Assembly: GCA_947505105.1 (NCBI GenBank)
Contig: CANNKG010000032.1
Span: 1 to 36,523 of the forward strand
From: Methylococcaceae bacterium
GTDB taxonomy: Bacteria; Pseudomonadota; Gammaproteobacteria; Methylococcales; Methylomonadaceae
Direction of reading: 5' to 3'
Length of the DNA: 36,523 nt
The translations under genes and the position numbers were made by a program. Below, one piece after another: positions 29,734 through 36,523 of the stretch. Each line of letters begins with the position of its first letter. Positions within the stretch are counted from its first letter, which is position 1. The notes beneath the pieces are model-generated. The model was not told where the DNA came from, did not search any database, and saw only the letters and a program-made list of their open reading frames with translations.

Positions 29734-30798
29734 ATGAACGAGACCTTCTATGATGTACTACGCAGACAAGGTATAAGCAGGCGAAGCTTTCTTAAATTTT
29801 GCAGCTTGACCGCCGCCTCACTTGGCTTAGGCAATACTTTTGCTCCGAAAATTGCCAATGCCATGGAAACCAAACCACGCACCCCTGTAATTTGGTTACA
29901 TGGTCTCGAATGCACCTGCTGTTCGGAATCATTCATTCGGTCAGCTCACCCATTAACTAAGGATGTGGTGCTCTCGATGCTTTCACTCGATTATGATGAT
30001 ACCTTAATGGCCGCAGCAGGGCACCAAGCCGAAGCGATTATCGAGCAAGTAAAATCAAAATACGACGGTAATTATATTGTCGCCGTAGAAGGCAACCCAC
30101 CCTTAGCTGAAGATGGAATGTTTTGCATCCACGGCGGTCGTCCATTTTTGGAAGTTTTAAAAGAAACTTGTGCAGGAGCAAAAGCCATCATTTCCTGGGG
30201 ATCTTGCGCAGCTTATGGATGTGTTCAAGCGGCCAAACCCAATCCTACCCAGGCAACCCCTATCCATAAAGTCATCAGCGACAAGCCAATTATTAAGGTT
30301 CCAGGGTGTCCACCGATAGCGGAAGTTATGACCGGTGTAATTGCATATATATTAACATTCGACCGCCTACCAGAATTAGATCGTCAAGGTCGCCCCAAAA
30401 TGTTCTATGGACAACGTATTCATGATAAATGTTATCGGCGCGGGCATTTTGATGCTGGACAGTTTGCCGAGATTTGGGATGATGAAGCTTCTCGTAAAGG
30501 CTATTGCCTCTACAAAGTTGGTTGCAAGGGCCCTACAACTTATAACGCCTGCTCATCAATGAGGTGGAATGGGGGAATTTCCTGGCCCGTTCAATCAGGA
30601 CATGGCTGCATCGGCTGTTCTGAAGACGGTTTTTGGGATAAAGGCAGTTTTTATGATCGCATTGTGGGAATGGATAATTTTGGAATCGAAGCCAGCGCCG
30701 ACAGAGTTGGCGGACCTGTTGCCGGTGTCGTAGCAGGAGCAATAGCTACCCACGCGGTCGTAACCGCTCTCTCTCGCTCGAAAAAGAAATCTGATTAA
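29734..30798 (+). CDS. hyaA: [NiFe]-hydrogenase small subunit, oxygen-tolerant Hyd-1 type
   Basis: Carries three Fe-S clusters that lead electrons from the active site to cytochrome b. A Tat signal (SRRSFLK at 15-21, cut predicted after ANA at 43) precedes 311 mature residues. The proximal-cluster cysteines are 60, 62, 63, 158, 163 and 192, which after cleavage become 17, 19, 20, 115, 120 and 149, exactly the E. coli HyaA set including both supernumerary Cys. Medial/distal ligands occur in [18 protein letters not shown] and GHGCIGC. A C-terminal hydrophobic helix (about 325-347) anchors it in the membrane. There is no good ribosome-binding site. hyaB follows after 34 bases. Confidence 0.97.
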
Positions 30799-30832
30799 TC
30801 ATATTACAAATTCAACGAAAGGTTTTACTCCT

Positions 30833-32623
30833 ATGACAAGTAACGAAGCCGAAGTATCCAAGATTGACAGCAAAGGAAGAAGAGTCGTCGTAGACCCTGT
30901 TTGCCGTATTGAAGGGCACCTACGTATCGAAGTCAATCTTGATAACAGCAACGTTATCCGCAATGCCGTATCAACCGGCACAATGTGGCGGGGGTTAGAA
31001 GTGATTCTTCAGGGGCGTGACCCGAGAGACGCCTGGGCATTTGCACAACGCATCTGCGGCGTATGCACCGGACCTCACGCACTCGCGTCAGTGAGATCAG
31101 TAGAAGATGCGTTATCAATCAAAATTCCGGAGAACGCCAATACTATCCGAAACATAATGCACCTTAATCTGTTCGTTCATGATCATTTAGTACATTTCTA
31201 TCACTTACATTCATTAGATTGGGTTGATGTCATTTCGGCACTCAAAGCAGATCCTAAAGCGACCAGCGAAGCAGCTCAGCGGCAGTCATCCTGGCCAATG
31301 TCTTCTCCAGGTTACTTTAACGACGTCCAAACGCGACTGAAAAAGTTTATTGAATCCGGCCAACTTGGACTATTTAGCAACGCTTATTGGGGCAATCCAG
31401 CTTACAAACTGCCGCCTGAAATTAATTTGCTCGCGGTAGCCCACTATCTTGAAGCACTAGACTTTCAAAAGGAAATCATCAAGGTTCATACAATTTTTGG
31501 TGGTAAAAATCCTCATCCAAATTGGCTGGTTGGCGGCGTTCCCTGCCCCATCAATCTTGAAGGAGCAGGGGGTGCCATCAACATAGAACGGTTGAACATG
31601 ATAAAAACCATCATTGATCGCTCGGCGGAGTTTGTTGAAAAAGTATACCTCCCTGATCTGTTGACAATTGCCAGTTACTATAAAGACTGGCTACACGGTG
31701 GAGGTATTGCTTCAAAAAACCTAATGGCGTACGGTGAAATTCCAATACGTGCCAATGATTACACTGCCGGTAATTTTCAATTTCCACGCGGCGCGATTAT
31801 TAATGGCAATCTTGCTGAAATTCATGATATCGATCTCTATGACCCGTCGCAGATCCAAGAATTCGTGACCCATTCCTGGTATAAATATCCGACAGAGAAT
31901 GTTGGTCTCCACCCCTTTGACGGCATCACTAATCCAGATTTTACCTTAGGTCCTAATACAGTCGGCACTAAAACCAAGGTTGAAAATTTTGACGAAAGCG
32001 CGAAATATTCATGGATTAAAGCCCCTCGCTGGAAAGGTCATCCGATGGAAGTTGGACCGCTAGCACGTATCGTTTTAGGCTATATGCAACCGAAGCAATT
32101 TCCGTTTTATAAAGAATCGGTAGACTCGGTACTCAACAAACTAGATTTACCATTTGAAGCTCTATTCTCAACGCTCGGTCGCACAGCCGCCCGTGGGATT
32201 GAAACCTTATATTGCGCAAAATTGCAACAAGAACAATTTGATAAACTCATGAGCAATATCAAAGCCGGAGATATCAACACCGCCAATACCGAAAAGTGGT
32301 ATCCATCCAGCTGGCCCACAGAAGCTCGCGGTGTAGGTTTTTCGGAAGCACCGCGTGGCGCTTTGGGACACTGGCTTAAAATCAAAGATACTAAAATCGA
32401 AAACTATCAGTGTGTAGTGCCTACGACCTGGAATGCAAGTCCGCGTGACCACCAAGGGCAAATCGGCGCTTATGAAGCGGCATTACTAAATACGCCAGTC
32501 GCGAACCCGGAACAACCACTTGAAATTCTGCGCACGTTGCATTCTTTCGATCCCTGTTTAGCCTGTGCGACCCACATTATTGATCCAAACGGCGCTGAAA
32601 TGTCGGTTGTCAAGATACTCTGA
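30833..32623 (+). CDS. hyaB: [NiFe]-hydrogenase large subunit
   Basis: Holds the Ni-Fe(CN)2CO active site that oxidises H2. It has 596 residues. The first pair of Ni ligands is in [10 protein letters not shown] (Cys75, Cys78) and the second in DPCLACATH (Cys575, Cys578). A 15-residue tail after His581 is the part removed by the HyaD protease once nickel is inserted. The proton-path Glu is in CRIEGH (Glu27). There is no signal peptide, so it is exported bound to HyaA through Tat. GAAAGG precedes the ATG. Confidence 0.97.
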
Positions 32624-32650
32624 AACTACGCTCGATAAGGAGAGTTAACC

Positions 32651-33364
32651 ATGAATGAAACCGATTCTTCTGCAAACAACAATGATGAAGCATTAGGCTT
32701 ACGACAAATAAAAGCCGTCTATGTCTACGATGCTCCGGTACGTTTTTGGCACCTAACCAATGGCGTTTCAATTGTCATCCTAATAATTACCGGTTATTTT
32801 ATTGGCACTCCGTTACCCAGTTCTCACCAAGGATCAACTGAAATTTATTCGATGGGCTGGATTCGATTAACCCACTTTGTAGCCGCCTATATTTTTGCCA
32901 TAGGTTTTCTCGGACGCTTATATTGGGTTTTCGCGGGCAATGCCCATGCAAAGCAGATTTTTTATCTGCCAATTCATAAATTACGCTGGTGGGGCGAAGT
33001 CATTTTTGAGCTTAAATGGTATATGTTCATGGTTAAGCAGCCCAAAAAGTACATCGCTCACAATCCTTTAGCTCGCGTAATGATGTTTACGTTTGCCGTC
33101 TGGGGTTCCATTTACATGATACTGACCGGCTTTGCTCTTTATAGCGAGGGTGAAGGCTCAGGTCATTGGAGCGATATTTGTTTCGGTTGGATTTTAGATT
33201 TATCGGGTGGTTCAATGGCAACCCATTCACTTCACCGAATAGGGATGTGGGTAACGCTGATTTTTGCAACAATTCATACCTATGCCGCAATCCGAGAGGA
33301 TATTGTCTCCCGTCAATCCATCCTCGCCACAATGTCTAGCGGTTGGCGCACCTTCAGAGACTAA
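32651..33364 (+). CDS. hyaC: Hydrogenase cytochrome b subunit
   Basis: Di-haem membrane protein that accepts electrons from HyaA and reduces quinone. The 237 residues have four main hydrophobic helices. Candidate haem histidines are in VRFWHLTNG, RLTHFVAAY, and SLHRIG with TIHTYAA, the usual HupC/HyaC pattern. An AAGGAGAG ribosome-binding site is well placed. It follows hyaB by 27 bases and is followed, unusually, by an MCP-like gene. Confidence 0.96.
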   Translation: MNETDSSANNNDEALGLRQIKAVYVYDAPVRFWHLTNGVSIVILIITGYFIGTPLPSSHQGSTEIYSMGWIRLTHFVAAYIFAIGFLGRLYWVFAGNAHAKQIFYLPIHKLRWWGEVIFELKWYMFMVKQPKKYIAHNPLARVMMFTFAVWGSIYMILTGFALYSEGEGSGHWSDICFGWILDLSGGSMATHSLHRIGMWVTLIFATIHTYAAIREDIVSRQSILATMSSGWRTFRD

Positions 33365-33385
33365 CCCTGATCAACGAGAATCCTA

Positions 33386-35083
33386 ATGAACACCAACGAA
33401 TTTAACAACCAAGCCAATCAAGCGCAGGATCAAATTTCACTCGAACGCCTAAAACCGATAGATTTGCGCCATAGCTCACAACTAGCATTGGCTAGCTTTG
33501 CCTTCACATCGTTATTTTTTGCTGGCCTTGGCGTTCTTACCCTTCTCGATATACTAAACGCTACCGCAGCAGCAGGTATATTAGCGGCACTTGGTTGTGC
33601 GCTTGCGTTGGGCGATGCTCTTTATATCAGAAACATGGACAATACGATGGAAGCGCTCGCTGACGCGCTGCAAAAAAGCACCACCGGCATTAATGACATT
33701 TCCAATGAGTTTATCCTGCCGGAAGGATCACCGGTAAAACTGATTGTCAAACTGATCGCGGAACGAGATCAACGCGTTAGAGAAATGATCGGAAGAATAC
33801 GAAAAGGAACAACGTTAGCTGCTCAAGATGCAACCAAACTCAATAATTTTCTTTACGATTCTAACGCCTTGGCGGACGACCAAAGACGTTTAGCAGAAAA
33901 CATTATCGAAGCCAGTAAACAATCGCGCGAAGTGGCAGAACAAGCGAGTAACAATGCACTTGACTTAAGTTCGACCACAAATCGCCATATCGAGCAAGCC
34001 CGAGCATCTGTCGCCCAATTACGAGAAACCGCCAAAGGTGTTGATGAGGTTGAGCAAGGTATTTGTGAATTCGAAAACAAAGTCAAAGAACTCGAAATGC
34101 ATTCTCAAGCGATTGGTGGGGTTGCTGAAATTATTAATGCCATCTCCAGCAAAACAAATTTATTAGCCCTGAATGCCTCCATTGAAGCTGCCCGGGCTGG
34201 CGATTCAGGTCGGGGATTTGCGGTCGTTGCGGATCAAGTGCGCGTTCTGGCGAGCCAAGTTCAGGAAGCAACTGCAACAATTGCAGAAAGCATTATCACC
34301 ATGGATACGCTTGTGGGTAACACCAGACAAGAAACCACGGTCATATTGGGTCATGTCAAAAAAACCGCCCAAGCGGTTCGAGATGCCACCGAACGTTTCG
34401 GTAAAATGGTCAGCGACTTTGATCTTATGGGACAACATATCAATGAAACCACCAGGGGTATCGGTTCAATGGACGAATCAAACATCAAAATTCAGGAAAA
34501 AGTATCATTAATTCATCAAAGTTGTGATCAAGTTTCCAAACGCATCACGGAAGCTGAAAAAAGTGTGGCTAAAGTGATCAGCACTACAAGTCGCATTCAA
34601 GAACTAGGCGCAAATTTCCGAATTGGCGACAATGCCTTAGAAACATTAATAGAAATATTAGAGAATACGAGACGAGGATGCGCCAAAGCACTAGCGTCAT
34701 GCGGCGACCCGGTATTATCCGGTGAAACCGCCGATGGCGCCGAAGAAGCTATTATCACACCGGAAATGCAAGAAAAATTATTCACAACTTATAAACGCCT
34801 CACTCAATCCTTAACCAAAGAAATCCCCGAAGCACATTACGCAATCATTGTTGACGAAAATGGCGAGGTAATACACGCTGAATTTAAAGGCATGCGCACT
34901 CGACTAATCGACGATCCGCATATATCCTTAAGAGCCATTAGAAACAAAAACAATGTATCAATCAATTCACTCACCGATGAAAATAGTACTTTAATTACCG
35001 AGCTTTCGTTACCCATCAAAGTGCGTGGTCGTAGTTTTGGTGCCATACGTATTGGCGTTCCTCCATCGCTAATCGCCAAATAA
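33386..35083 (+). CDS. MCP-like signal transducer inside the hydrogenase operon
   Basis: 565 residues. Two adjacent transmembrane helices (about 34-55 and 58-80) leave almost no periplasmic loop, so there is no external ligand domain. A long coiled coil follows, with a recognisable methyl-accepting-protein signalling tip ([19 protein letters not shown] at 254-272, then [15 protein letters not shown]). The C-terminus (about 460-565) is an extra alpha/beta domain with [17 protein letters not shown] and a closing [13 protein letters not shown], resembling PAS/Cache-type sensors. It lies 21 bases after hyaC and 8 bases before hyaD, hence co-transcribed. An energy- or H2-sensing role is inference. 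Confidence 0.88.
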
Positions 35084-35121
35084 TCTTTCTAATGGTCAAC
35101 TTTATTACGCAATCATCGCAT

Positions 35122-35688
35122 ATGATCGAAACACCCACTATTTTGGTATTAGGTATTGGCAATATATTATGGGCCGATGAAGCTTTTGGGGTTCGATGCC
35201 TAGAAGCGTTAAACCAATCCTGGTCTTTTGCCTCCAACGTTAGTCTGATGGACGGCGGAACACAGGGACTATACTTATTACCTCATGTTCAGAATGCTGA
35301 TCGCTTGCTGGTATTTGATGCCATCGACTACGGAGACACACCCGGTACTTTACGTGAGATCATAGGCTCTGAAGTACCACGCTTCTTTGGCGTAAAAAAA
35401 ATGAGCCTACATCAAACCGGTTTCCAAGAAGTATTAAGTGCTGCCGACTTTACCGGACAATATCCGAGTGAAATTGTTCTGATTGGTGTGCAACCTGAAG
35501 AGCTTGACGATTTTGGTTCCGGACTTCGGGAAAGTGTTATAAATCAGATACCCGCCGCAATAAAACTCGGTTTGGATTGGCTTTCCCGCTGGGATGCCAA
35601 ACCTACTCCTCGTGTGAATTCCAGCGCCATCCCTCATGACGCAAGAACTCACTGTCACCCAGAAATAACCGCCATCAATATCATTTAA
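35122..35688 (+). CDS. hyaD: Hydrogenase maturation endopeptidase HyaD/HupD
   Basis: Nickel-dependent protease that removes the C-terminal tail of the large subunit after metal insertion. From the ATG at 35122 there are 188 residues. The likely Ni ligands are Glu20 (GNILWADEAFG), Asp66 (LLVFDAIDYG) and His97 (MSLHQTGF), close to the family spacing. An in-frame ATG at 35092 would add ten residues and shift the motif away from the usual N-terminal position; neither start has a good ribosome-binding site. The region after about residue 150 is longer than in many relatives and ends in a His/Pro-rich tail. Confidence 0.93.
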   Translation: MIETPTILVLGIGNILWADEAFGVRCLEALNQSWSFASNVSLMDGGTQGLYLLPHVQNADRLLVFDAIDYGDTPGTLREIIGSEVPRFFGVKKMSLHQTGFQEVLSAADFTGQYPSEIVLIGVQPEELDDFGSGLRESVINQIPAAIKLGLDWLSRWDAKPTPRVNSSAIPHDARTHCHPEITAINII

Positions 35689-35693
35689 AGTTT

Positions 35694-36119
35694 ATGTCTC
35701 AATTATTACAACCAGCCTTGACTTCAATCACTAAACTAAATGAAGCGATAAGCAGAATGATTAATTTACATGGTTTTTCACCACTCAGCACAAACCATTT
35801 AGATGGAACTTTCTCATCCGGTCGCCACCTAGTACTGCTAACTCAAGATCCACTCTTAAGTCCCGAATCGCTGGATGCCTGCGTGATTTTGCCCGAAGCT
35901 TTAAAACGAAGACCATCCGACATCATTGTTAAATGGGTTGCCGATGCTGAAACCAGCCAACAATTGATGGCCAGCTGTCAAATTAATCGAGCTCCCGCCG
36001 TAATCTTTTTTCAAAATGGACAAATAACAAACTATCTGGAAGGCATTCGAGACTGGGGAAGTTATGAAGCCTCCATACTGGCACTTGTTGATTCATGCGC
36101 CGACCGATTCGAAGCTTAA
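35694..36119 (+). CDS. hyaE: Hydrogenase small-subunit maturation protein HyaE/HupG
   Basis: A 141-residue thioredoxin-fold protein without a CxxC active site. The family is recognised from LLTQDPLLSPES, the DIIVKWVADAETS strand, and INRAPAVIFFQNGQI with the conserved proline. HyaE-type proteins bind the Tat signal or precursor of the small subunit and help its maturation, especially under oxygen. It starts five bases after hyaD. A hyaF/hupH remnant follows after 34 bases. Confidence 0.88.
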   Translation: MSQLLQPALTSITKLNEAISRMINLHGFSPLSTNHLDGTFSSGRHLVLLTQDPLLSPESLDACVILPEALKRRPSDIIVKWVADAETSQQLMASCQINRAPAVIFFQNGQITNYLEGIRDWGSYEASILALVDSCADRFEA

Positions 36120-36153: not shown

Positions 36154-36375
36154 ATGATGAGTTCAACACCCCAATACAAAGCCTTCCCAATCCCAGTGAT
36201 CGCCTATAATACTGAAAGTGAACCGGATGACACGGCGGAACTGATTGGTATCCCCATGGACATGGGCGTATTTTCCTTTCCCGGCGCCCCCTATGATACC
36301 GACCCGGACGTCATCAAAATAGCCATAGACTTGATCGACAATCTAATTGAAGGAATCTCTGCGGTACTCAATGAA
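36154..36375 (+). pseudogene. hyaF: hyaF/hupH 5' fragment, interrupted by an IS
   Basis: Readable HupH/HyaF N-terminus: FPIPVIAYN, an acidic E..PDDTAEL stretch, and PMDMGVFSFPGAP, which matches the P-M-P-x-x-M-x-x-F-x-P-P pattern of the family start. GAGAGA precedes the ATG. After about codon 74 the frame enters the terminal inverted repeat of an IS30-family element and runs on nonsensically to a stop at 36468 (104 codons in all), whereas the intact family is about 280 residues. HupH/HyaF assists small-subunit Fe-S maturation. Any 3' remainder would lie beyond the element, outside the window. Confidence 0.65.
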
Positions 36376-36523
36376 CGGCGGATTCAACTCCGAAGTGCAA
36401 TCCTAGTTGTCATGCGGCCTTCGGCAAAGATTCTGCAAAAAAGACTGAATGAGGTGTTTTATAGTTAAGGCTTTTCCGTGGTCGATGGTTAAGTTTTTTC
36501 ATCACCTCCTCGACATCCTTATC
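36376..36523 (-). mobile_element. IS30-family insertion sequence, right end (partial)
   Basis: The terminal sequence GGCGGATTCAACTCCGAAGT (36377-36396), followed by GCAAT, resembles IS30-type inverted repeats (GATTCAA...GAAGTGCAA), and the transposase C-terminus lies just inside it. The exact left boundary is uncertain by a few bases. The other end and any target duplication are outside the window. Confidence 0.75.
36410..36523 (-). CDS. IS30-family transposase, C-terminal 37 residues (partial)
   Basis: Read on the minus strand from the window edge, the frame stays open for 37 codons to a TGA at 36410-36412. It contains LNHRPRKSLNYKTPHSVFF, the conserved C-terminal signature of IS30-family transposases (LNxRPRKxLxxKTPxEVFF). 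The catalytic DDE residues lie further upstream, outside the window. The TGA sits about 35 bases from the element's end, as usual for this family. Its orientation is opposite to the hydrogenase operon. Confidence 0.85.
   Translation of the reverse strand, partial: DKDVEEVMKKLNHRPRKSLNYKTPHSVFFAESLPKAA

Follow-up and report, generated by a model that had tools for sequence, protein, structure and literature searches.

A chemoreceptor gene between hyaC and hyaD of a [NiFe] hydrogenase operon in a Methylococcaceae bacterium: genomic context, relatives and possible function

In the genome of a Methylococcaceae bacterium, a gene for a methyl-accepting chemotaxis protein (MCP) lies between hyaC and hyaD of an operon for an uptake [NiFe] hydrogenase of the Hyd-1 type, which raises the question whether this chemoreceptor serves the enzyme with which it is encoded or came to this place by chance. 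Connections between metabolic enzymes and taxis have been described in several forms. In Methylobacterium, three MCPs were reported to track the oxidation of methanol or what this oxidation yields (PMC10613068), CetABC of C. jejuni was proposed to read the effect of a dehydrogenase on NADPH (PMC10746189), and taxis to H2 was reported for a methanogen (Brileya 2013, cited in PMC4266047). A mixed precedent is TlpD of H. pylori, which binds catalase and aconitase, interactions that its authors reported being unable to tie to sensing (PMC4820699). The closest precedent in idea is [FeFe] hydrogenase group C2, termed 'chemotactic (putative)' in HydDB, for which a link between hydrogenase and MCP has been proposed; group C2 is described as a putative sensing enzyme, whereas the hydrogenase considered here is a respiratory [NiFe] hydrogenase of group 1 (PMC5037454). 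We found no report in the open-licence literature of a respiratory [NiFe] hydrogenase operon that contains a chemoreceptor gene. If the link to H2 is true, removal of single genes could test whether an uptake hydrogenase serves as a behavioural sensor; if it is false, the locus is a useful caution that operon position alone does not show function.

The window, i.e. the whole stretch of DNA that was analysed (36,523 nucleotides), is the complete contig C32 of a 5.1 Mb genome assembled in 307 contigs. According to Pfam and NCBIfam models, hyaA, hyaB, hyaC, the MCP gene, hyaD and hyaE follow each other on the plus strand from 29734 to 36119 (Table 1). Family matches of the large, small and cytochrome b subunits together with their conserved ligands assign the enzyme to the Hyd-1-type uptake [NiFe] hydrogenases, and the subunits look intact at the sequence level. 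HyaA contains the stretch ECTCC, which we take to be typical of O2-tolerant enzymes. The presence of an intact MCP gene of 565 codons in this operon, stated in a preliminary description of the locus, is confirmed by the agreement of the open reading frame and the family models; also, an MCP profile built without the focal receptor recovered it as positive control (E 1.5e-34). The gene order hyaA-B-C-(MCP)-D-E-F is otherwise that of the hyaABCDEF, hoxKGZMLOQ and hup operons, including a rubredoxin-like frame (by eye) beyond the remainder of hyaF on contig C83, from which the focal operon differs by the inserted MCP gene and an interrupted hyaF. For Dechloromonas aromatica, the published description gives HyaA to HyaF without an MCP, and HoxL/HypC between hyaD and hyaE, where the focal operon has no gene (PMC2907700).

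Table 1. Features of the hydrogenase operon and of the chemoreceptor encoded in it (positions in the window).
Feature	Position	Strand	Basis and remarks
Promoter-like site TTGACA-17-TATATT upstream of hyaA	29622..29650	+	11/12 consensus letters; such sites at chance number in the region
hyaA, small subunit	29734..30798	+	TIGR00391; 153/154 near-invariant columns and 14/14 conserved Cys kept
hyaB, large subunit	30833..32623	+	PF00374; 206/210 invariant columns kept
hyaC, cytochrome b subunit	32651..33364	+	TIGR02125; 37/39 near-invariant columns and 5/5 conserved His kept
MCP gene for the chemoreceptor of 565 aa	33386..35083	+	ORF with ATG start; PF00015; family models for the neighbours
Two adjacent membrane helices, residues ~34-79; probable hairpin with both ends cytoplasmic	33485..33622	+	Hydropathy
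MCP signalling domain with conserved tip, residues 221-373	34046..34504	+	PF00015; tip compared with relatives
Divergent C-terminal PAS/Cache-like domain, residues ~455-565	34748..35080	+	Profiles, low-confidence fold, alignment
hyaD, maturation protease	35092..35688 (start may be 35122)	+	TIGR00140; 36/39 near-invariant columns kept
hyaE	35694..36119	+	PF07449
hyaF/hupH, 5' part only, cut by insertion element	36154..36376	+	Resembles the beginning of HyaF-like frames of relatives
End of IS30-like element, transposase C-terminus	36377..36523	-	Repeat in the genome; boundary comparison

Between the end of hyaC at 33364 and the start of the MCP gene on the same strand lie 21 bases, as originally described, and the spacing of 8 bases given for the other side applies to the first ATG of the hyaD frame; since the match to the HyaD family covers this frame only from residue 17 onwards and an internal ATG is a possible start, this gap may instead be 38 bases. 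Terminator-like sites on the plus strand were absent from both gaps flanking the MCP gene, which says little because such sites occur at shuffle level in the region (9 versus a shuffle mean of 8.0). With a GC content of 0.446 and a GC3 of 0.392, the MCP gene is similar in base composition to the neighbouring genes, which makes a very recent insertion of foreign DNA appear unlikely. From its position inside the hydrogenase operon we infer co-transcription, and the receptor is probably made together with the enzyme.

The architecture of the protein suggests that it senses an internal state, from the cytoplasm or within the membrane. Hydropathy peaks at residues 34-52 (1.79) and 61-79 (1.88) with almost no loop between them, leaving no room for a periplasmic domain, and in a low-confidence single-sequence model of the whole receptor (pLDDT 52) helices were predicted at residues 30-53 and 59-108. 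The PF00015 match (E 3.7e-25; 89.2 bits against a curated cut-off of 34.6) places the protein among the MCPs, and the sequence of its signalling hairpin tip is conserved in comparison with relatives. The preliminary description was thus right about two near-contiguous membrane helices, the missing periplasmic sensor and the MCP signalling tip, while the C-terminal PAS/Cache-like domain it proposed can be upheld in a weaker form, as a distant relationship. The family sCache_3_2 (PF17203) matched residues 476-558 with 17.1 and 18.8 bits, below the curated cut-off of 28.4 and thus short of membership. A profile of ten related MCP C-termini, from which the focal sequence was excluded, gave 20.8 bits for the focal C-terminus versus 7.3 bits for the best of 5000 shuffles. 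The single-sequence fold predicted for this region (pLDDT 51, low confidence) consists of a helix followed by strands; in comparison with the PDB many of its weak matches were Cache sensors, GAF and Roadblock folds appeared too, and none reached E 0.001. Sequence searches of the PDB returned nothing in one case and only matches of E 0.68 or worse in another. The focal C-terminus appears as a divergent relative of an MCP C-terminal domain without family name. Among 24 relatives, which also defined these positions, 27 alignment columns were at least 85% conserved; each relative has at least 21 of them, the focal C-terminus just 10. Of the family motifs, it lacks the PTHN loop and RD.G, and in HWG the W is missing; no cofactor site was recognised in it. 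Given that so few of the conserved columns are kept, the signal input of this domain is probably altered.

Relatives of the receptor were searched in samples of 301 genomes of the order Methylococcales and 369 of the class (for the full protein in 161 and 171 genomes, respectively), with at most eight MCP candidates per genome scored for the full protein and at most 11 for the family profile in the order. The C-terminal sequence alone gave, own genome aside, weak matches in one of 300 order genomes and in one of 368 class genomes. The match in the class (L011) is an MCP with the architecture of the focal receptor; that in the order (L010) is by eye a methyltransferase-like frame and was taken as chance. 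A family profile that included the focal sequence matched in 13 of 301 order genomes, its own among them; nine of the 13 belong to two other families, two matches are marginal and in short broken frames, and several of the proteins share, by eye, the hairpin plan of the focal receptor. The nearest full-length match was an MCP in genome G461 (L251), aligned to focal residues 65-557 with 26.8% identity (E 2.6e-51 in a search of the ORFs at its locus) and adjoining, by eye, antiporter-like genes and another MCP. Together with, for example, Salinivibrio kushneri WP_269580484 (L109) and Methylococcales MCPs such as those at L208, L209, L212-L215 and L224, it resembles the focal receptor in its membrane hairpin (by eye), signalling coil and C-terminal domain, and additionally has the coil motif MVSDF..xG in common with it; these relatives keep the PTHN, RD.G and HWG motifs, which the focal receptor does not. 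The plan of the receptor is ordinary, with similar receptors in other Methylococcales and in Salinivibrio, and the unusual part is its location.

None of the 38 loci around receptor relatives (2-17 kb each; several with only distant MCPs, and L010 taken as chance) contained a hya gene. Homologues thus lie largely away from hydrogenases, an outcome that the preliminary description had itself named as speaking against its reading of a receptor tied to the hydrogenase. All three other genomes of the genus were without the receptor (at E 1e-40) and without a HyaB match. In 84,980 species, a scan with six exact 8-residue peptides, which misses distant relatives, found no MCP relative, and in viral contigs 13 stretches matched a pattern, none of them confirmed as a relative. 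Plasmid records gave 4277 matches to the whole-protein query, as expected of MCPs, none covering 80% of it.

One rival explanation is that of a passenger: an ordinary chemoreceptor of a common class would have inserted by chance at a spot where the operon tolerates it, and would respond to an unrelated signal or have lost its own, with co-expression as a by-product. The tolerance of this spot can be judged from other genomes. HyaB-like genes (E 1e-50) were present in 85 of the 301 order genomes, and 147 loci were surveyed, 40 of the order (two being further copies from the own genome), 27 of the class via HyaC matches, and the 80 best of 554 named matches. After removal of six duplicate loci (L082, L105, L108, L119, L159, L178), 141 unique loci remained, of which 126 had hyaC and 99 also hyaD downstream on the same strand; the 27 hyaC loci without hyaD in the sequence covered include 18 that extend 1.6 kb or less beyond hyaC. 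The gap between hyaC and hyaD measured <150 bases in 59 of the 99 loci, 150-600 in 25, 600-1500 in 7 and more in 8. The initial statement that Hyd-1-type operons run straight on from hyaC to hyaD does therefore not always apply: 40 of 99 gaps reach 150 bases or more, 19 loci have a HigA-like match in the gap, and the slot tolerates other genes. These counts, the 38 relatives' loci without hya genes, and the occurrence of MCPs near hydrogenases at about background density make a chance arrival a quite possible explanation, although we would rather not bet on it; the short spacing on both sides, the intact frame and the neighbour-like base composition of the gene argue against it.

An MCP in the slot was found in none of the 99 other measurable loci with the profile that recovers the focal receptor, so that the order hyaC-MCP-hyaD is a singleton among the loci examined and a conserved hydrogenase-MCP operon type was rejected. 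Over all 147 loci, the profile detected MCP frames in five, none between hyaC and hyaD and one (L150) a fragment; those upstream of hyaA in L128, L155, L163 and L165 are by eye periplasmic-sensor types (TarH in L163). Enrichment of MCPs near hydrogenases was likewise rejected, the 80 named loci having four full frames and one fragment in 1.16 Mb compared with 27 PF00015 matches (two being parts of one frame) in the 5.1 Mb of the own genome, which is a rough cross-genome comparison. An arrival of the receptor together with the hydrogenase was also rejected, as Azonexaceae and further Rhodocyclales, whose HyaB proteins are closest to the focal one, have mostly short hyaC-hyaD gaps and none with an MCP.

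Regarding other occupants of the slot, small HigA-like (XRE) genes lie between hyaC and hyaD mainly in betaproteobacterial operons (L042, 4052-4387; L129, 10522-10869; L145, 3981-4352; further L148, 3755-4141; L175, 5700-6041; L179, 10518-10838). At L160, L162, L166 and L168, which come from Azoarcus, Denitromonas and a Rhodocyclaceae MAG, hyaC and hyaD are ~3-4 kb apart; by eye, the gaps of L162 and L168 contain a LysR-like frame.

The origin and state of the hydrogenase genes bear on a further explanation. In a quick, midpoint-rooted HyaB tree of 107 rows, the focal protein falls in a clade of 40 rows (support 100), mainly Betaproteobacteria where named and including one Methylococcales row (L042). 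Its end branch of 0.41 is about ten times the median of 0.043, and its exact place is unsure due to this long branch. With nearly all invariant columns kept, HyaB appears to have evolved fast but under constraint. Two further HyaB-like genes were found in the own genome on contigs C146 and C170, the former with a second Hyd-1-type hydrogenase locus that has a HupH_C-bearing frame of 300 aa.

At the end of the window, hyaF is interrupted. The sequence closes with 147 bases from the end of a repeat, presumably of the IS30-like family to judge from its transposase motifs. For the final 60 bases, 40 matches in the genome were scored (63 candidates), 17 of which begin with the first base of a contig, and each of the 12 copies of the repeat end that were retrieved lies at a contig end; the repeat probably explains part of the fragmentation of the assembly. 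Of the 11 copies besides the window, nine diverge from it precisely at 36377 and the remaining two slightly earlier, by one or two bases. Contig C83 (L243, 18669-19481) has at its end a frame with two HupH_C matches, which is followed by the rubredoxin-like frame and borders on what, judged by eye, resembles the opposite end of an IS30-like element. The simplest reading of these sequences is that one insertion split hyaF between the window end and C83.

With hyaF disrupted, the operon may be losing function, and the receptor could simply be a gene not yet degraded in a locus on its way out. The long HyaB branch, the insertion in hyaF, the degenerate C-terminal domain of the receptor and the second Hyd-1-type locus with its HupH_C-bearing frame fit such decay. 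We nevertheless consider it improbable, as HyaB, HyaA, HyaC and HyaD keep almost all of their invariant or near-invariant columns (Table 1) and the function of hyaF could come in trans from C146.

Whether the receptor could act on motility depends on a chemotaxis pathway, and the preliminary description had named the lack of a chemotaxis kinase or CheW in the genome as speaking against its reading. Both are present: contig C4 carries fliA, cheZ, cheA, cheB, a motD-like gene and cheW (family models), the cheA frames on C91 and C97 also bear kinase and CheW domains, and there are 13 CheW-domain matches in the genome, five of them in frames of 644-747 residues. With these genes available, the receptor could signal to one of the several CheA proteins, to which it would couple via CheW.

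Internal sensing, as suggested by the architecture, and joint expression with the H2-oxidising enzyme, as suggested by the position, together favour energy taxis fuelled by H2. We regard energy or H2 taxis as the best single reading, to be held tentatively and at somewhat less than an even chance, and infer the link to H2. The focal receptor belongs to a class seen in several groups, in which a membrane hairpin of two helices is combined with a signalling coil and, at the C-terminus, a PAS/Cache-like domain; in this lineage it has come to sit between hyaC and hyaD of a hydrogenase operon of betaproteobacterial affinity. Oxidation of H2 would deliver electrons via HyaC into the quinone pool; the receptor would register the change by means of its membrane segment, the altered C-terminal domain or a partner, and report to CheA through CheW, so that the cell stays where H2-driven respiration pays. 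The hydrogenase-tied reading of the preliminary description is thereby retained in part. The intact gene in tight same-strand packing, the conserved tip, the conserved hydrogenase subunits and the chemotaxis genes including fliA count for energy taxis, as do the precedents for metabolism-linked taxis in Methylobacterium, C. jejuni and a methanogen, and the absence of a periplasmic domain, which is expected of an internal-state sensor. Against it stand the relatives without hya genes, the singleton gene order with no MCP in the other 99 slots and no receptor in the other genomes of the genus, the loss of most conserved C-terminal residues with no recognised cofactor site, the disrupted hyaF, the background density of MCPs near hydrogenases and the mixed precedent of TlpD. 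MtpA, MtpB and MtpC of Methylobacterium aquaticum are similar to the role proposed here in that either substrate oxidation by a dehydrogenase or the resulting product governs taxis; unlike the focal receptor, they were tested by knockout and sense methanol or formaldehyde, and the published account of them, which makes no mention of an operon, describes no embedding in that of an enzyme (PMC10613068).

Two variants of a closer connection were considered. A chemoreceptor can depend on other proteins for its input; CetA is not known to have a sensor of its own. Such partner-reliant receptors are known from CetA with CetB or CetC (PMC10746189), and the focal receptor might likewise be an accessory of HyaC that follows the cytochrome b state through membrane contact, its C-terminal domain being reduced to a scaffold. 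The adjacent hyaC gene, the membrane hairpin and the lost C-terminal motifs are consistent with this, but HyaC itself has no special change (Table 1), and we think a direct partnership very improbable. Rather unlikely, if less so, is a one-off fusion of metabolism and behaviour, in which a receptor placed in a [NiFe] operon of betaproteobacterial affinity would have shed its own ligand pocket and the enzyme itself would be the H2 sensor for swimming.

The searches also provided observations on related chemoreceptors. A C-terminal MCP domain with the pattern PTHN ... NR.R ... RD.G ... P..V.G.HWG is common to receptors of Alpha-, Beta- and Gammaproteobacteria and of Thermomicrobium (carriers at L011, L109, L110, L201-L207, L208-L216, L221-L224 and L251). 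In the three relatives scanned (L011, L109, L110), the C-terminal region had no Pfam match at E 0.1, and this domain is a candidate for a new domain family. In another Methylococcales genome (G097), an MCP of 410 aa with a membrane hairpin and without the C-terminal domain is encoded at L256 4196-5428, facing tatC- and tatB-like frames (by eye).
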